33,094 nucleotides of DNA, from the IMG/VR virus record IMGVR_UViG_3300043411_001180, positions 1-33,094 of that record. One strand, 5' to 3'. The stretch is from a virus. The notes below the pieces were generated by a model. The model saw only the letters and a program-made list of their open reading frames with translations. It searched no databases and was not told the DNA's origin. The translations under genes and the position numbers were made by a program. This document shows, piece after piece, positions 7,815 to 27,702 of this stretch. Numbering within the stretch: the stretch's first letter is position 1; each line of letters opens with the position of its first letter.

Positions 7815-8447
7815 TTATATGCGATTTAATGTCTTTACTGCCTGAATAAATTTCACGTTGTCACGTTGCATCACAAATGCAATCGAATCACCGTGACCAT
7901 GACACCCAAAACATTTGTAATGGTTTTGCTTGTCTATGTAGAATGATGGCGTTTTTTCACCCTCATGCCCAACCAGTGGACAGTGACAGTTGCCACGCCA
8001 TTTACCTGTAGCCTTGAAGACCTTCATTCCTACTAGATCTTCAAGTGGTACTTCCCTTGCACGTTCGATTTCAACTTCTGTCACGCCACCTTGCTTCTTG
8101 CCCGGATTCAACATCTGCTGTTGGATCTGAATGATGCGCTTCATCACTCGCTTAGGGTATTCAGTTGCCTGTTCGATCATGATCACTTGTAGGTCCCCAC
8201 GAACTTCCATGAAGGCGATAAAGTGACTTTCTTCCATAGGCTTGTGGGCATAGCCAAATTCTTCTTTGAACCACTTCATGAATTCGTCTTGGGTGCCACA
8301 GATCTTATGGTCCCTTTTGATTTGCTCGATAGTACTACTCATGTTCTCAATTAGTGCTTGCTTCAGTTCTTCCAATGCTTCATAGGTAGGGCAAAAGAGT
8401 TCCAAGGCTTCGGATAATGATAATTTATTTTCTCTGGTGTGTAGCAT
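7815..8447 (-). CDS. CHC2 zinc-finger (DnaG-type primase zinc-binding domain) protein
   Basis: Of 210 residues, the last ~80 match the DnaG zinc-binding domain. They read VPLEDLVGMKVFKATGKWRG, then the CHCC metal set (Cys156, His161, Cys179, Cys182 within CPLVGHEGEKTPSF and YKCFGCHGHGDS), and an amphipathic helix after it. The domain recognises template DNA during priming. The N-terminal 120 residues are helical and unrecognised. No TOPRIM/RNA-polymerase domain follows: the protein ends right after the finger, so it needs a separate catalytic subunit, or acts as a DNA-binding or regulatory protein. Confidence 0.8.
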   Translation of the reverse strand: MLHTRENKLSLSEALELFCPTYEALEELKQALIENMSSTIEQIKRDHKICGTQDEFMKWFKEEFGYAHKPMEESHFIAFMEVRGDLQVIMIEQATEYPKRVMKRIIQIQQQMLNPGKKQGGVTEVEIERAREVPLEDLVGMKVFKATGKWRGNCHCPLVGHEGEKTPSFYIDKQNHYKCFGCHGHGDSIAFVMQRDNVKFIQAVKTLNRI

Positions 8448-9339: not shown

Positions 9340-9347
9340 ACCTAGAA

Positions 9348-9356
9348 AGCATAGCA
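9348..9356 (-). promoter_or_regulatory. Extended -10 promoter, leaderless start of the HTH gene
   Basis: On the minus strand TG-C-TATGCT is followed by 8 bases and the ATG at 9339. Transcription would start on or next to the start codon. No good -35 box is seen. It is arranged back to back with the rightward box at 9413-9421. Confidence 0.6.
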
Positions 9357-9373
9357 TATGAAGTAAGGACACA

Positions 9374-9394
9374 TTGTCCACAGTGTGTGCATAA
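9374..9394. promoter_or_regulatory. Inverted pair of DnaA-box-like 9-mers
   Basis: TTGTCCACA (9374-9382) and, inverted, TGTGCATAA (9386-9394) each differ from the consensus DnaA box at one base and face each other across three bases, in the middle of the divergent promoter region. TTGTCCACA recurs at 5964-5972 and, inverted, at 11328-11336, always between genes. Binding by host DnaA or a phage protein would link replication to both transcription directions. Confidence 0.45.
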
Positions 9395-9412
9395 CTGGTC
9401 CGGCATCTGCTG

Positions 9413-9421
9413 TGCTATCAT
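9413..9421 (+). promoter_or_regulatory. Extended -10 promoter, leaderless start of the helicase gene
   Basis: TG-C-TATCAT is followed by 8 bases and the ATG at 9430. The position fixes the start of the helicase gene, although the frame stays open upstream to 9385. No clear -35 hexamer is seen at the usual distance. Confidence 0.65.
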
Positions 9422-9429
9422 TCCTTTGT

Positions 9430-11001
9430 ATGGCAAATGAAAAGAGCATTAAGAAAGTGACCAAAAAGAAGGCGACCCCTAAAAAGGTGGCTAAGAATAA
9501 GAGCAATCTTGATGCGCTTAATGCTGAACTAGAAGCCCTTGGGCTAGATGGTATTGAAGATGTTGATAATACCCCTGAACGTAATGCTTACTTTGCACAC
9601 CTTGAAGAAGCAGACTATAACGACAAGGAATGGATCAAGGTAGCCAAAGCCTTGCGAATCCAACATAAGCTGGCATTTCATAAGTATGTAGCCGTGGCGT
9701 ACCCATTCCTGAAGTACGAAATTGGTGAAGACAAGACCTATTGGAACTACAATGAAGAAACAGGGATCTATGATGAAGTGAATTTCACTACGGTCCGTGG
9801 CTTCATTATCAAGCTACTCATTGAAGATGGTCTTGAAGATGTGGCTACTGAAGCAACATCAAAAACTATTCTGTCAAAGTTTCGTGCCATGTTCACGACC
9901 CGAGCAACACTCTATAAAGATTTTGATGCTGAACAAGACTGGTTCCACGTGAAGAACGGCTGGATCAATGTGAATACCAAAGAGTTTGAAGACCACACGC
10001 CACACCGTATCAGTAGGCGTGTTAGTGCTGTGCTGTATGACAAAACCGCTACATGTCCTAACTATGACAAGTTCCTTGATGAACAGATGCAATTAAAGCC
10101 AGACCAAGTGCGTGCTATTGATCAATTCAGTGGCTTGCTTTTGACACCTGATATCAGCAAACAAAAGATGCTGGTACTTATTGGTAAGCCCGGTAGCGGT
10201 AAATCTACCTTGCTTGATATCTGGTCTGACGTTCTTGGTGATGTCGCTACACAAAAAGGATTGACTGAAATCACTGGTGAATCATTTCGCTTTGGTGGAT
10301 CTTCTTTGGTAGGCAAGCGCCTGTGCTGGTTTGATGAAGTGGAAGTGACCCGAGCAAATATGGGTAACGCCTTGATTCAGCTAATCACTGGACAGCATAT
10401 TAAAGTTGAACGTAAGGGTATCAATGGATTTGTTGATGCTGATAACCAACTGAAGTGTGTGCTAACCGCTAACACCTTGCCACGGTCCGCTGAAATGGGT
10501 ATCTACCGCCGTATGATCCTCATCTATTTGGAATACTCTTTCTATGATTCTATGACGGCGAATCAGAACATCCGAAACATCCTGAAAGCTGAATCATCTG
10601 GTGTACTCAACCGTATGCTTCGTGGGCTGGCTGATCTACAGAAGAATAAAGGCTTCACACAGATTGAGGGTCACAGTGAATTGATTGAAGAATACAAGTC
10701 GAGTAGTAACACTGTCGCTGAATTTTTGGATGAATACTTTGAGTTCCAATATGATGCTGACCCAATCCCGACCAAGGTATTGCTTGAAGCCTACAAAGAG
10801 TTTACGAATGATAAGTATTCCGAATCACTGACCCCACAACGCTTTGGTATGGTGATGAAGCATCACGGGCTGACCAAATTCGATAAGATCTTCAATAAGC
10901 AAAACAGTGATGGCCAGAAGGTTTGGTGTGGCTTGAAATTGAAGCCTCTCTATATGTTCAATACGGCTGGGTATATCCGTGAAAACGAGGGCAATTTCTA
11001 A
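9430..11001 (+). CDS. SF3 (D5/P4-type) replicative helicase
   Basis: This 523-residue protein has a lysine-rich N-terminus, a D5_N-like middle region and a superfamily 3 ATPase. Walker A GKPGSGKST is at 252-260, Walker B LCWFDEVEV has Asp302/Glu303, motif C CVLTANTLPR is at 343-352, and RR at 360-361 is the arginine finger. A winged-helix-type end follows. In P4 alpha-like proteins this helicase is fused to a primase. Here the N-terminal 200 residues lack recognisable primase motifs, which fits a separate CHC2 finger protein in the left arm. It forms its own transcription unit between a leaderless promoter and a strong terminator. Confidence 0.88.
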   Translation: MANEKSIKKVTKKKATPKKVAKNKSNLDALNAELEALGLDGIEDVDNTPERNAYFAHLEEADYNDKEWIKVAKALRIQHKLAFHKYVAVAYPFLKYEIGEDKTYWNYNEETGIYDEVNFTTVRGFIIKLLIEDGLEDVATEATSKTILSKFRAMFTTRATLYKDFDAEQDWFHVKNGWINVNTKEFEDHTPHRISRRVSAVLYDKTATCPNYDKFLDEQMQLKPDQVRAIDQFSGLLLTPDISKQKMLVLIGKPGSGKSTLLDIWSDVLGDVATQKGLTEITGESFRFGGSSLVGKRLCWFDEVEVTRANMGNALIQLITGQHIKVERKGINGFVDADNQLKCVLTANTLPRSAEMGIYRRMILIYLEYSFYDSMTANQNIRNILKAESSGVLNRMLRGLADLQKNKGFTQIEGHSELIEEYKSSSNTVAEFLDEYFEFQYDADPIPTKVLLEAYKEFTNDKYSESLTPQRFGMVMKHHGLTKFDKIFNKQNSDGQKVWCGLKLKPLYMFNTAGYIRENEGNF

Positions 11002-11017
11002 CAACTAAGGACAACTG

Positions 11018-11059
11018 AAAAGCACAGACACTAGAATCATCTAGTGTCTGTGCTTTTTT
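11018..11059 (+). terminator. Rho-independent terminator after the SF3 helicase gene
   Basis: A perfect 18-bp stem (11018-11035 with 11040-11057) encloses the 4-base loop ATCA. The left arm starts with A-run bases and the right arm ends in six T. It lies 16 bases after the helicase stop. The stem contains CAGACACTAG, a sequence repeated in the following non-coding region. Confidence 0.92.
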
Positions 11060-11395
11060 ATAGCGTAACTCATTTGAGGTTATGTCAATTTGACCTATTC
11101 TATATTAGATGGTCTTATGTGTGGTTTACAGATACTAAGACAGACAGTTACAGAGACTAGTGTCTGTAACTTTTACGGCTTAGAATAAGGCTGATTTACT
11201 GATTACAGACACCTAGATACTTATTCTAAGTTATGTAGAAATATTTTTTTAATACGTAAATATATAATAATACGGGTGAGATATTTTTAAGTGTCTGGTG
11301 TCTGTAGAATGGATTTTTTTAAGGAAGTGTGGACAAACCAATATGCGCGGACCATCGCTTCTTTTCTTGGCTGTTGCTTAATTAGGATTTTGTCG
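11060..11395. other. Non-coding repeat and AT-rich region, candidate replication origin
   Basis: I see no credible gene here. The segment holds several copies of a GTGTCTG/CAGACAC motif: 11156-11162 within a 9-bp inverted repeat (AGTTACAGA / TCTGTAACT), around 11205-11212, and twice at about 11291-11305, besides the two in the terminator stem. An A/T-rich stretch covers about 11228-11290. A TTGTCCACA box lies inverted at 11328-11336. Repeats plus an AT-rich stretch beside a helicase gene are the usual layout of an origin, but regulatory RNA or terminator functions could explain part of it. Confidence 0.45.
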
Positions 11396-11404
11396 TGCTA
11401 TACT
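11396..11404 (+). promoter_or_regulatory. Extended -10 promoter, leaderless start of the small terminase gene
   Basis: TG-C-TATACT is followed by 8 bases and the ATG at 11413. It therefore places the gene start at 11413 rather than at the upstream in-frame codon at 11395. A weak TTGCTT lies at 11374-11379 with a long 19-base spacer. Confidence 0.7.
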
Positions 11405-11412
11405 TTTGGCAT

Positions 11413-11958
11413 ATGAAAGAAACAAAGACCGGAACTCGGTCTAGTGGTTCTCAAAGAACAACTAAGACGAAGCCGAAAGTAAAAAGAGAAAAAGGGCGAC
11501 CAACAAAATACACAGAGATTTTGGCTGATAAGATTTGCGAACGCATTTCTAATGGGGAATCGTTGCTTCAAATATGTCGTGATGAAAAGATGCCGGGGCG
11601 TTCGACTATTCATAAGTGGCTTATTGAATCGAAGGCTGACGGTACACCAAAACGCCCAAATTTTATAGACAACTACGCGCGTGCAACAGAGCTTCGCGCC
11701 GATGTTGCGTTCGATGAGATCAACGAAATTGCTGATCAAACACCTGAAATGATCAAGAAGACAGCAGAAAAAAAGTCTTCAGCAATGGCACAGGCACAGC
11801 GTTTGCGTGTTGATTCCCGCAAATGGACCGCGGCGCGTATGTTCCCTAAGAAATATAGTGAACGCCATGTGGTCACATCTGAAGACGCTGAAGGGAATAC
11901 CGTTCCAATTGCTGGTAACACCATAACTTTTGTCACTTCAGATGGTAGTAGCAAATAA
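11413..11958 (+). CDS. terS: Terminase small subunit
   Basis: This 181-residue protein has a basic N-terminal tail and then the pattern of Sf6-type small terminases. This comprises GRPTKYTEILADKICERI, a helix-turn-helix (SLLQICRDEKMPGRSTIHKWL), and the later AQAQRLRVDSRKWTAARMFP followed by KKYSER. The subunit binds the packaging site on phage DNA and recruits the large subunit. Its end overlaps the large subunit gene by 17 bases. It opens the late operon with a leaderless start. Confidence is high because both the motif order and the neighbour agree. Confidence 0.9.
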   Translation: MKETKTGTRSSGSQRTTKTKPKVKREKGRPTKYTEILADKICERISNGESLLQICRDEKMPGRSTIHKWLIESKADGTPKRPNFIDNYARATELRADVAFDEINEIADQTPEMIKKTAEKKSSAMAQAQRLRVDSRKWTAARMFPKKYSERHVVTSEDAEGNTVPIAGNTITFVTSDGSSK

Positions 11959-15510: not shown

Positions 15511-15740
15511 AAACCGATTCTGACTTTCAAGAATTGAAAAATCACATTGATGAAAAAATCAGTGAGCTTAATACTCTTGATGGTATCAACTTCGAAGATG
15601 AGAAGTCCGCGGCGATTGAAGGTCGAGCGCGTGAGCTTGCGCGCAAAACATTAATAGCGATTCTTGATCCGTTTTTTGAACCGGAGGAATCAACAGAAGA
15701 TAAGAAACAGCACGTTGCAGAGAAAACGGGCGTGCTATAA
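15480..15740 (+). CDS. Hypothetical small protein
   Basis: This 86-residue helical, charged protein (DFQELKNHIDEKISELNTL) overlaps the previous gene by 31 bases. Its last codons run through the extended -10 box of the following gene. No recognised domain. Function unknown; probably a head-assembly accessory protein, judged from the block it sits in. Confidence 0.6.
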   Translation: MLTSNIARRLETDSDFQELKNHIDEKISELNTLDGINFEDEKSAAIEGRARELARKTLIAILDPFFEPEESTEDKKQHVAEKTGVL

Positions 15741-15741
15741 T
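15733..15741 (+). promoter_or_regulatory. Extended -10 promoter TGCTATAAT, leaderless start at 15748
   Basis: A perfect TG-C-TATAAT is followed by 6 bases and the ATG at 15748. It overlaps the end of the preceding gene and decides the start, although the frame remains open to 15664. Confidence 0.75.
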
Positions 15742-15747
15742 TTTTCT

Positions 15748-16314
15748 ATGGCAAATAAAAACACTAAAGGCAAGGGAGGTAAAGGGGCAAAGAAAGTTGC
15801 ACCAAATAAAGTTATTCCTAAGAAGGAAGATGAGGTAGCTGAAGAGACTGAAACTGAAGAAACCGAAACTGAAGAAACTACTGAAGACACCACTACTGAA
15901 GAAGGTGAAGGTGGGTCTGAAGAAGGGTCTGAAGAAGAAGGTGAGGAAGAAGATGAGGATGAGGAAGATGAGTTTGCTGATGCTTCAGCAAAAAGTACGA
16001 AGTGCGGTGTCTATCAAGGGGGTCGCTTGGTCAAGCTTTTCAATTCAGTCACACATGGTGCTGACTACAAGAAGATTGCGAAGGACCTTGCGAAGCGTTT
16101 GACCGAAAAGAACCCATCATCACCAGCGGAAGCAAAGGACTACTTTGATCCGAAGACTGATGAGCCTTCGAAAGAAGCTGTCCGTGTCGTCAATGCGAGT
16201 AACAGCCTGATCCGTGAATTTTCACTTGCGACACATGGCAAGGGATATCGGGATCTTGCGGATGCTTTCATTGAAAAGCATGGCTCGAAGCGAGGATATC
16301 GTATCGCGGTATAA
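15748..16314 (+). CDS. Acidic protein with a duplicated C-terminal motif
   Basis: This 188-residue protein has three parts: a Lys/Gly-rich N-terminus, a Glu/Thr/Asp-rich disordered stretch (about 28-77, with repeats of ETE and EEG), and two similar ~35-residue units. The first unit has LVKLFNSVTHGADYKKIAKD. The second has LIREFSLATHGKGYRDLADA. The shared pattern is F-S-x-A/V-T-H-G-x-x-Y-x-x-x-A. The duplicated THG unit may bind DNA or a partner. It is placed between head genes with its own leaderless promoter and is possibly a virion or DNA-condensing protein; no family is recognised. Confidence 0.65.
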   Translation: MANKNTKGKGGKGAKKVAPNKVIPKKEDEVAEETETEETETEETTEDTTTEEGEGGSEEGSEEEGEEEDEDEEDEFADASAKSTKCGVYQGGRLVKLFNSVTHGADYKKIAKDLAKRLTEKNPSSPAEAKDYFDPKTDEPSKEAVRVVNASNSLIREFSLATHGKGYRDLADAFIEKHGSKRGYRIAV

Positions 16315-24885: not shown

Positions 24886-27702
24886 ATGTCACGTGTATCA
24901 TTCAAAGAATTCAGTGCGGGGCTTCCGGTAACACGGCAAACACCAGCTCAACCAAAGCCACAGCTTGACGATAAAGGCAATGTGGTTGGTCGTGCTTTGT
25001 CTGATATTCCAAGTGATATTGTTGATACCTTCAAAGGCGTGATAGGTGCTGGTCGCCGTGGATCTGAAAAGTTTGCTGAAGCGTTTACTACGCCAGACCT
25101 TTCTATACCACAACGTGTCGCGGGTGCGGTGGTAGCACCATTGTCTGCATTGGTGAACGCTGGCGGTGAAGCAATCAAGGGTGGTGCGAAGCTTTTGACT
25201 ACTGAAGAATTTGAAGCAAGCCTTTCAGGGGCTATCGGACAGGTGGGTGAAAAAATCATGAGTACCGATGCGGCAAAGAAGGCTGTAGAACTCTATGATT
25301 CGCTTCCTGAAGATCAGAAGTACACACTTTCAAGTATTATTGCGCCAATGGCGAACGTTATGACCGCTGGTGTTGGTGGTATTGGGGCAAAACCAGTCCT
25401 AAATAGCTTAAAAGAGGGGCTAAAACAGGCTACAAAGGCCACAGTGAAGGAAACGGTCAAACGCACGCCACAGGAAGCCGCTGAAGCGGTTGTGAGGTCT
25501 GCTAACCCTACACCAAACCCTGTTGTAGACACTATTTCAGGTGCGGCAAAGCAAGTGACTGATTTTGCGAAGCGGACAGTCAATGAAGCACAAGATACCG
25601 CGGCTACAGCCCGCCGTCTTAATGAGATGCCAGAACCAAAGTCTAACTTGATTCGTAAAGGTGCCGATGAGCGCATTGTGAACGTGATGGAAGGTGCTAC
25701 CCCTGAAGAAATCAAGGTGTACCGTGAATTGATCGAGCAAGCGAAGGCAAAGGAAATAGATCCTACACCAAATACGCCACAGCCAAAGGCCACAGTGAAG
25801 GAAACGGTCAAACGCACGCCACAGGAAGCCGCTGAAGCGGTTGTGAGGTCTGCTAACCCTACACCAAACCCTGTTGTAGACACTATTTCAGGTGCGGCAA
25901 AGCAAGTGACTGATTTTGCGAAGCGGACAGTCAATGAAGCACAAGATACCGCGGCTACAGCCCGCCGTCTTAATGAGATGCCAGAACCAAAGTCTAACTT
26001 GATTCGTAAAGGTGCCGATGAGCGCATTGTGAACGTGATGGAAGGTGCTACCCCTGAAGAAATCAAGGTGTACCGTGAATTGATCGAGCAAGCGAAGGCA
26101 AAGGAAATAGATCCTACACCAAATACGCCACAGCCAAAGGCGGTTGCTGGTCGTGAGTTCCTAAAGCCAGTTGATTACATCATCACTGAACGCAAGTCCG
26201 TTGGTAAAGAGCTTGGTGAATATCGAAAGAATCTTAGTACTGTCAAAGACGTTGATACGAATCCAGCCTTCCAAAATTTCCACACATATCTGAAGGATAA
26301 CTTCAAAGTGAAGTTCGATAAGAAAGGTCAAATCATTCCCAATACTGGTACGCTTGCCGCTTCAGATGTGAAGCTTATTCAGAAGATCTATAACCAGCTT
26401 CGAAGCGACAAAAAGAATTCACAGGCTGAATTGGATCAGTGGCTTCAGCGAACCTATAAGGATTACGATCTTGTACAAGCGCGTGAGAAGACCTTTTCTG
26501 AAGAAGTCCCGCGTATCGCTGAAAAGGCACGATCTGAAGTGCGTGCGCTCATGCCAGAAGACTACAACAAGCTTGCGACAGACTATGCACAGCTATCACG
26601 CCCACTTAATGAGTTTGTGAAGCTTCTTGGCTACAAGGGCAATCTTGATGATCTTACAGCGAAGGAATTGAAGACTGGTGAGATCGCACTACGTGTGCTT
26701 GGGAACGCCGCAGATCGCCCACAATCAGTTATTGACGATATCCTTGAAACAGCAACAGATCGTGGTTTCCAGTCGAACGTGGACCTTAATCGCTTGATCT
26801 ACATCACGGACCAGCTTGAAGATCTATATGACATCACGCCAAGTCGTGGCTTCAGCGGAAGCGCTACACGTGGTATTAACAAATCAGATGCCGCTGGTGT
26901 TATTGGTGATGCGGCTACCATGAATATTGGTGGTTTGTTCAATCGTGCGATGGGTTCACGGGCTACACAGAAAGAGATCCAAGCCGCATTCGAAGAATAC
27001 GTGAAATACCTTGATGAAGGTGGTGAAGTTAAACCTAAACCGGGGTCTTTTAAGAAGGGCGAAATCCCTGAATCTACACCCGCAGAAACAGTCGCCAAGA
27101 CCATTGAAGAAATGATCACAAAAGCGCCTGAAGCGAAGTCTTTCATTGATGGTATTGCTGATAGCGCTATCGCTGGTCTTCCTGATGTAAAGGTTGCGAA
27201 AGCACCAATCAAGTCAAAGGATCGTGCCATTGAAAAGATTATGAATGAAGAAGGTGGCGATGCTACGCAGTTGCGGGATCTTGCACGTAACTCTATCGTG
27301 CCAATGACCCCTGAAGGATTGACGGCATCACTCGCTAAGATGGATGAAGTGCTTGCGAAAGCTGAAGCTGATGGCTTATATACAAAAAAGAAGATCCAAA
27401 CACCTGAAAAGTTTTCTGGTTATGGTGGCGTGATTTACAACATCGAAACACCAAATGGATTGATTGCTGAAATTCAAGTGGTTGAACCACGTATGATCTT
27501 TGGAAAGATGTTACCTGAAGATGCTGAAGCAATTCTTGGTAAGGATCTCTTTGAGCAGATAAAGAAAGAAACAGGTGTGGAACCCGGTTATGGCCACAAG
27601 CTGTATGAACAGCTTCGAGATCTTTCCATCAAGGACCTTGAAGGTGAGAAAGGCCAGACACTAATTAAAGAATCAGTTGACTACTATAATAAGCTAAGGT
27701 AA
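24886..27702 (+). CDS. Large ejection-type protein with C-terminal RelA/SpoT-like domain
   Basis: The 938-residue protein has a Pro/Ala/Lys-rich N-terminus, an exact 117-residue tandem duplication (about 184-420), helical middle regions, and a C-terminal ~165 residues that resemble a RelA/SpoT alarmone synthetase. The motif order is IKSKDRAIEKIM (about 775), QLRDLARNSIV (796), GYGGVIYNI (845), AEIQVVEPRM (862) and GYGHKLYEQLR (901). In the family, the R-D motif, the GY stacking tyrosine, the EIQ glutamate and a late H-x-L-Y segment come in this order. Virion proteins with fused toxin domains are known. Catalytic activity is not proven from sequence. Confidence 0.62.
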   Translation: MSRVSFKEFSAGLPVTRQTPAQPKPQLDDKGNVVGRALSDIPSDIVDTFKGVIGAGRRGSEKFAEAFTTPDLSIPQRVAGAVVAPLSALVNAGGEAIKGGAKLLTTEEFEASLSGAIGQVGEKIMSTDAAKKAVELYDSLPEDQKYTLSSIIAPMANVMTAGVGGIGAKPVLNSLKEGLKQATKATVKETVKRTPQEAAEAVVRSANPTPNPVVDTISGAAKQVTDFAKRTVNEAQDTAATARRLNEMPEPKSNLIRKGADERIVNVMEGATPEEIKVYRELIEQAKAKEIDPTPNTPQPKATVKETVKRTPQEAAEAVVRSANPTPNPVVDTISGAAKQVTDFAKRTVNEAQDTAATARRLNEMPEPKSNLIRKGADERIVNVMEGATPEEIKVYRELIEQAKAKEIDPTPNTPQPKAVAGREFLKPVDYIITERKSVGKELGEYRKNLSTVKDVDTNPAFQNFHTYLKDNFKVKFDKKGQIIPNTGTLAASDVKLIQKIYNQLRSDKKNSQAELDQWLQRTYKDYDLVQAREKTFSEEVPRIAEKARSEVRALMPEDYNKLATDYAQLSRPLNEFVKLLGYKGNLDDLTAKELKTGEIALRVLGNAADRPQSVIDDILETATDRGFQSNVDLNRLIYITDQLEDLYDITPSRGFSGSATRGINKSDAAGVIGDAATMNIGGLFNRAMGSRATQKEIQAAFEEYVKYLDEGGEVKPKPGSFKKGEIPESTPAETVAKTIEEMITKAPEAKSFIDGIADSAIAGLPDVKVAKAPIKSKDRAIEKIMNEEGGDATQLRDLARNSIVPMTPEGLTASLAKMDEVLAKAEADGLYTKKKIQTPEKFSGYGGVIYNIETPNGLIAEIQVVEPRMIFGKMLPEDAEAILGKDLFEQIKKETGVEPGYGHKLYEQLRDLSIKDLEGEKGQTLIKESVDYYNKLR
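25433..26141 (+). repeat. Exact in-frame 351-bp tandem duplication
   Basis: Two copies with a 351-base shift (117 codons) are identical at every base I compared. They are bounded by the 7-base microhomology CAAAGGC, found at the start, middle and end of the array (25433, 25784, 26135). Each copy carries TPQEAAEAVVRSANP, a proline linker and ERIVNVMEGATPEEIK. Zero divergence means a very recent event, a copy kept uniform by recombination, or an assembly artefact. Confidence 0.95.

Follow-up and report, generated by a model that had tools for sequence, protein, structure and literature searches.

A probable iteron-based replication origin beside its P4-family helicase gene in an uncultured phage, with repeat words that vary by lineage

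Both P4 alpha and the primase of Lactobacillus phage A2 match the profile TIGR01613, and in each record the annotated replication elements immediately follow the corresponding gene. The ori of P4 (NC_001609) comprises sites at 29>, 39>, 50>, 70<, 115> and 125>, where the arrowheads give orientation; its second site, crr, immediately follows the terminator of the alpha gene and has sites at 285< and 330>, again 45 bp apart. In A2 (NC_004112), the annotated rep_origin directly follows the TIGR01613 gene, and ACGGGAGGAT sites, four one way and four opposite, flank an AT-rich stretch. SaPI Rep and SCCmec Cch2 recognise, through their C-terminal domain, iterons right downstream of their own gene, and for Cch2, which is of the D5 kind, the isolated C-terminal domain binds the repeats after its gene (PMC7581432, in excerpt). 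For the RepA iterons of PLE in Vibrio cholerae, the excerpted text of PMC8263062 describes origin and initiator that function only as cognate pairs, with iterons that diversify.

The DNA analysed here (the window) is a complete IMG/VR virus record of 33,094 bases, whose genes run leftward from ~9.4 kb and rightward from a helicase gene at 9430. The genes and protein segments considered below are the following.

7815–8447: CHC2 zinc-ribbon protein of the DnaG type, encoded separately from the helicase
9430–11001, plus strand: P4-family D5/SF3 helicase, presumed initiator (523 aa; TIGR01613, D5_N, DUF5906, phrog_864)
10687–10998, plus strand: C-terminal winged-helix domain, presumed origin-binding (residues 420–523; predicted alone, mean pLDDT 85.7)
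10819–10929, plus strand: recognition helix and wing, co-varying with the repeat word (residues 464–500; partial r 0.65, p 0.0007)
start at 11413: terS, terminase small subunit (phrog_1482 match)

The helicase belongs to the P4 family by its TIGR01613 match (157.1 bits; cut-off, 108.7), carries Pfam D5_N and DUF5906 above cut-off, and matches phrog_864 with an E of 1.5e-52. Its matches are confined to D5_N/DUF5906 and to C-terminal parts of primase profiles, and it thus does not have the fused primase of P4 alpha. The latter is longer (777 aa) and has an N-terminal primase part which is absent from the window helicase; this limits the likeness to P4 alpha, not the membership in TIGR01613. Since the CHC2 gene stands apart from the helicase gene, a split primase module is possible. 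Past the helicase stop, 393 bases without any ORF of at least 60 aa precede terS, and the window gave no hit to Rfam or in a tRNA scan.

An earlier note on this DNA had pointed, in the bases after the helicase gene, to GTGTCTG/CAGACAC repeats, some of them inverted within a terminator-like stem, and to an AT-rich stretch, and had suggested that the repeats are iterons of an origin served by the neighbouring helicase. All three sequence features proved real, and they are arranged as follows (> and <, orientation of the word).

11017–11058, plus strand: terminator-like hairpin with two copies of the word (−29.5 kcal/mol, z −7.15), followed by a T run
11127–11168, sites in both orientations: iteron block A (> at 11127, 11139 and 11149; < at 11159)
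11204–11220, plus strand: iteron block B (> at 11204, 45 bp past the < of block A; then a degenerate half-site)
11214–11289, no strand: AT-rich interval between blocks B and C, presumed unwinding element (82% A+T)
11290–11306, minus strand: iteron block C (< at 11290 and 11297)

GTGTCTG occurs six times in 11000–11400 (plus strand at 11044, 11160, 11291 and 11298; minus strand at 11025 and 11206), versus two single copies, at 27655 and 28134, in the other 32.7 kb. When the word was not preset, the top 7-mer in the 400 bases past the helicase stop had six copies, a count equalled by none of 200 dinucleotide shuffles. As a control with real sequence, 5 of 866 other 400-base segments of the examined contigs contained at least six copies of some 7-mer, one source of these being a cluster of CTGAAGA near 15.6 kb of the window. 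This word is found there up to seven times per 400 bases, within coding sequence at 15551–16250.

The arms of the hairpin are 11017–11035 and 11040–11058, and a word pair at the same place also occurs in three relatives (L001, L010 and MW202577). A consensus terminator scan did not return this hairpin, and the pattern GTGTCTGN{0,10}CAGACAC had zero matches in the window, because the two hairpin copies face the opposite way round. The hairpin, with its two extra copies of the word, probably ends the helicase transcript. The AT-rich interval amid the repeats is the most AT-rich of the window, its A+T content being equalled by 3 of the 33,018 stretches of that length. Two further elements recur in several relatives: a G-rich one left of block C (11270–11289), reading GGGTGAG in the window and GGGTGAGTT or GGGAGAGTT in relatives, and a TTCTTTTCTTGGCTGT-like one to its right (11350–11375).

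With site offsets scored in a common 10-base register, the window array reads 125>, 137>, 147>, 157<, 202>, AT-rich interval, 288<, 295<. Blocks A and B thus show the arrangement of the P4 ori, > > > <, 45 bp, > >, in the form > > > <, 45 bp, >, with both orientations present. P4 has two sites (ori and crr), whereas the window has a single array, which includes an AT-rich interval and the inverted block C; no second cis-acting site was found within the window, where only the two single distant GTGTCTG copies lie elsewhere. The P4 word, GGTGAACAGT, differs from that of the window. The A2 origin shares the position directly after the gene and differs in word, spacing and protein length, the proteins being distant (22% identity). 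Iterons directly 3' of the helicase gene are also the mark of the SaPI/Cch2 type as we defined it from the excerpted text of PMC7581432; compared by description, those are staphylococcal islands with other words, and Cch2 has only three 5-base repeats. PLE is less similar, with three semi-palindromic repeats of ~30 bp and a specificity attributed to an N-terminal RepA_N domain rather than in a C-terminal winged helix (PMC8263062, in excerpt).

Helicase-based scans gave 17 loci for comparison: the window, ten IMG/VR loci (L001–L010), L019, L025–L027, L035 and MW202577 (L011). Further viral scans yielded no new contig except three distant ones (L044–L046, 24–32% identity), which were left out of the analysis. 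In 17 of 17 loci, repeats stand right after the helicase stop, and in 16, including the window, no shuffle reached the repeat count (in L019, 3 of 200 did). The place is constant; the word varies by lineage, as listed here.

Window: ACAGACACT
L001, L010: ACGGACACT
L003–L006, L009: ACTGACACT
MW202577 (L011): ACGGATACT
L008: ACGGATAGT
L007: GGTGAATAGT (one base off the P4 word)
L002: GGTGGATAGT
L026: GGTGACATTA
L027: GGTGACATAC
L035: GGTGACGGCA
L025: GGGTACCGTT (palindromic)

L019, whose helicase is 53% identical, has tandem units of ~32 bases (L019:7513–7650) instead of dispersed short words, and is a candidate for another origin type or an intermediate. The sole match among bacterial and archaeal genomes, L035, comes from a 3-kb contig assigned to a Candidatus Kaiserbacteria bin; this binning gives a weak hint that the hosts of the phage group are Patescibacteria.

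The general layout (> > > <, 45–49 bp, >, AT-rich stretch, inverted sites) is kept where the word changes. Conservation among relatives therefore held for position and layout, and failed for the letters of the word. L001 and L010 repeat the block A pattern of the window at offsets lower by one base. Not every one of the three > sites of this block could be made out in L008 and a few more loci. Among the 11 loci of the 17 that were scored for distance, the < of block A and the > of block B are 45 bp apart in seven (window, L001, L010, MW202577, L008, L003 and L005), 46 bp in L007 and L002, and 49 bp in L026 and L027. For L003 and L005, the value was taken to the perfect site at 176 rather than to an imperfect site at 166. 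Six loci went unscored: L004, L006 and L009 as near copies, L019 for its different repeat type, L025 for its palindromic word, and L035 because its contig ends 207 bases past the stop. Where the spacer between blocks A and B has the same length (37 bases), the window agrees with L001, L008, L003 and MW202577 at just 38–54% of positions, meaning that length is conserved and not sequence. At least one inverted site is present on the block C side in all 11 loci listed. The interval between blocks B and C is 72–87% A+T in these loci, but ranks among the A+T extremes of its contig in just four of them (window, L003, L005 and L027).

Word similarity tracks helicase residues 460–508 when the rest of the protein is allowed for. 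We scanned the protein in 37-column segments, using the remainder minus the tested segment as covariate and permuting taxa, on 11 related lineages (one row each; words read by hand from the arrays). L004, L005, L006, L009 and L010, as near copies, and L019, for which no 10-base word could be defined, were not entered. Segments starting at residues 464–472 gave the peak (partial r 0.65, p 0.0003–0.0007). The partial r was 0.54 when words were free to shift by three bases, and 0.73 (p 0.003) in the eight lineages of the main clade. Outside the peak, two segments reached p 0.006–0.02, starting at residues 310 and 160, the better being that at 310 (partial r 0.35, p 0.006). The helicases of the window and MW202577, with different words, are 88% identical in the core and 73% in the C-terminal domain, as expected if this domain changed along with the word. 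At the level of single residues, Arg493 occurs in three lineages with ACGG words and Ser493 with ACAG and ACTG; we did not retain the idea that Arg493 reads the third base of the word, because seven columns of the whole protein show a comparable split, and treat it as a lead only.

The winged-helix model of the C-terminal domain was compared with 1000 chains, among which the P4 origin-binding domain (1ka8) ranked fifth (Z 7.0, 85 of 100 residues, rmsd 3.3), a Z that unrelated folds can also reach; listed beside it were RFX winged helices and the African swine fever virus PrimPol. Foldseek matched the model to 1ka8 with an E of 0.51. A C-terminal profile found no match among PDB sequences at E values up to 10, and the whole helicase sequence had no usable match in the PDB. 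The model of the whole helicase (mean pLDDT 65.5, ATPase part poor) was left out of the structure search.

Taken with the conserved place and layout, the likeness to P4 and A2 and the co-variation, the repeats are best read, in line with the earlier suggestion, as iterons of an origin beside its own helicase gene. Judging from sequence, 11127–11306 is very probably the iteron array of a P4/SaPI-type origin, bound and used by the 9430–11001 helicase; that this is an origin of ordinary kind in an unstudied phage group is well supported. The helicase would bind the word TACAGACAC(T) through its C-terminal winged helix, and several monomers would collect on the three blocks, whose fixed geometry would bring helicase rings next to the AT-rich interval. 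This interval would then melt, and the helicase would load itself and unwind outward. We infer this course, from initiator binding through ring assembly and melting to the start of synthesis, by analogy with SaPI Rep and Cch2 (PMC7581432) and P4 alpha (PMC4234260), as these sources describe them in excerpt. If the proposal is correct, the C-terminal domain would favour ACAGACAC over ACGGATAC or a scrambled word.

DnaA boxes and GC skew bear on where synthesis might start. The DnaA-like box at 11328 noted earlier does exist (TGTGGACAA, one mismatch) but is not a conserved part of the array: the window has 14 DnaA-like sites as good, and 12 of 13 other loci lack a counterpart, L027 having a one-mismatch box at a near-equal offset. 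The array thus lacks the conserved DnaA boxes of a DnaA-dependent origin. Such boxes do occur on the other side of the gene:

9374–9382, plus strand: DnaA-like box TTGTCCACA
9386–9394, minus strand: DnaA-like box TTATGCACA

In 11 of 11 loci, the helicase start is preceded, at a distance of 42–56 bases, by a DnaA box with at most one mismatch (background, 0.112 per 220 bases), which in seven of them is exact TTATCCACA. This count did not include L025, L026, L027 (cut off), L004, L006 and L009; in L026, where the gene is longer and fused, TTATACACA stands 75 bases ahead of it, and in L025 no box was found within the 72 bases available upstream. The upstream box is doubled in the window, MW202577, L001 and L010. 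Two roles suggest themselves: DnaA may modulate the helicase promoter, or the region may take part in initiation.

The latter option leads to the main rival explanation, namely that the array is an accessory site like the P4 crr and that synthesis starts at the divergent intergenic region, ~9340–9430. Besides the invariably present upstream box, it can draw on the separation of ori and crr in P4 and on GC skew, whose minima (9278 in the window; 11646 in MW202577, computed over 33.4 kb) both fall at the divergent region. The skew plot that the earlier note had proposed as a check has therefore been made, and with a minimum 1.7 kb from the repeats it neither confirms nor excludes the site: skew also tracks gene direction, which switches at both minima, so that it does not discriminate between the array and the divergent promoter region. 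Moreover, the iteron word is not repeated in the divergent region, the AT-rich interval sits within the array, the array layout is that of the P4 ori itself, and the upstream box may merely regulate the helicase promoter. We consider this explanation unlikely, though it is the strongest of the rivals.

Packaging, transcriptional control and chance all rank below an origin. Iteron binding frequently regulates transcription too, and the array lies between helicase and terS, ~100 bases 5' of the terS start, so the repeats could be operators through which a repressor or the helicase controls terS and late-gene transcription. Yet L007 and L019 keep the repeats although their next genes are on the opposite strand (for L007, as taken from the contig read as L016), and the word follows the DNA-reading segment of the helicase; an operator function, improbable as the main role, could be a second one. 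Packaging sites commonly adjoin terS, here the next gene, and a cos or pac site bound by the small terminase might be suspected. L001 and L010 argue otherwise: they have the same word, near-identical helicases and TerL proteins 99% identical, while their TerS proteins are alike over 50 residues only (54%), meaning that the word belongs with the helicase side and does not follow the small terminase. The array is also kept in L002, L007, L008, L026 and L027, which have no downstream ORF matching the L010 TerS (E 1e-4), making a packaging site very improbable. That the repeats are due to chance or are a plain terminator region is hardly credible: two of the six copies are indeed the arms of one hairpin, but the shuffles, the real-segment control and the layout conserved across loci all speak against it.

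An iteron origin bound by its helicase thus being preferred, its wider meaning can be put only tentatively. It may be that at least ten words on a near-fixed frame are each matched in the recognition segment (recognition helix plus wing), that this code is decipherable, and that selection against cross-initiation or against origin-targeting rivals, among phages with common hosts, drives the turnover of words; on balance we would sooner doubt than assert this. If it were true, the group would be a natural experiment in initiator specificity, with a reading code solvable residue by residue. The principle is not new, cognate pairing and iteron diversification being known in PLE from the excerpted account (PMC8263062); what lifts the case above routine is at least ten words on one frame. 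Origin and initiator are assigned in uncultured phages for which there is hardly a clue to the host. The matched protein–DNA pairs allow a test of how a winged-helix initiator shifts its target with function kept, and the turnover of words lets one test whether there is pressure on the origins of co-resident phages to differ.

The 37-base spacers between blocks A and B of L001 (3690–3744) and L008 (3233–3287) are 81% alike, despite helicases only 60–67% identical, so that an exchange of origin segments between the two lineages is possible from the sequences. Promoter-like −10 boxes were seen by eye at 9405–9432 and 11395–11415, ending only ~7–10 bases short of the helicase and terS start codons, with a similar placement in several relatives. 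Their closeness to the start codons makes leaderless helicase and terS transcripts possible.
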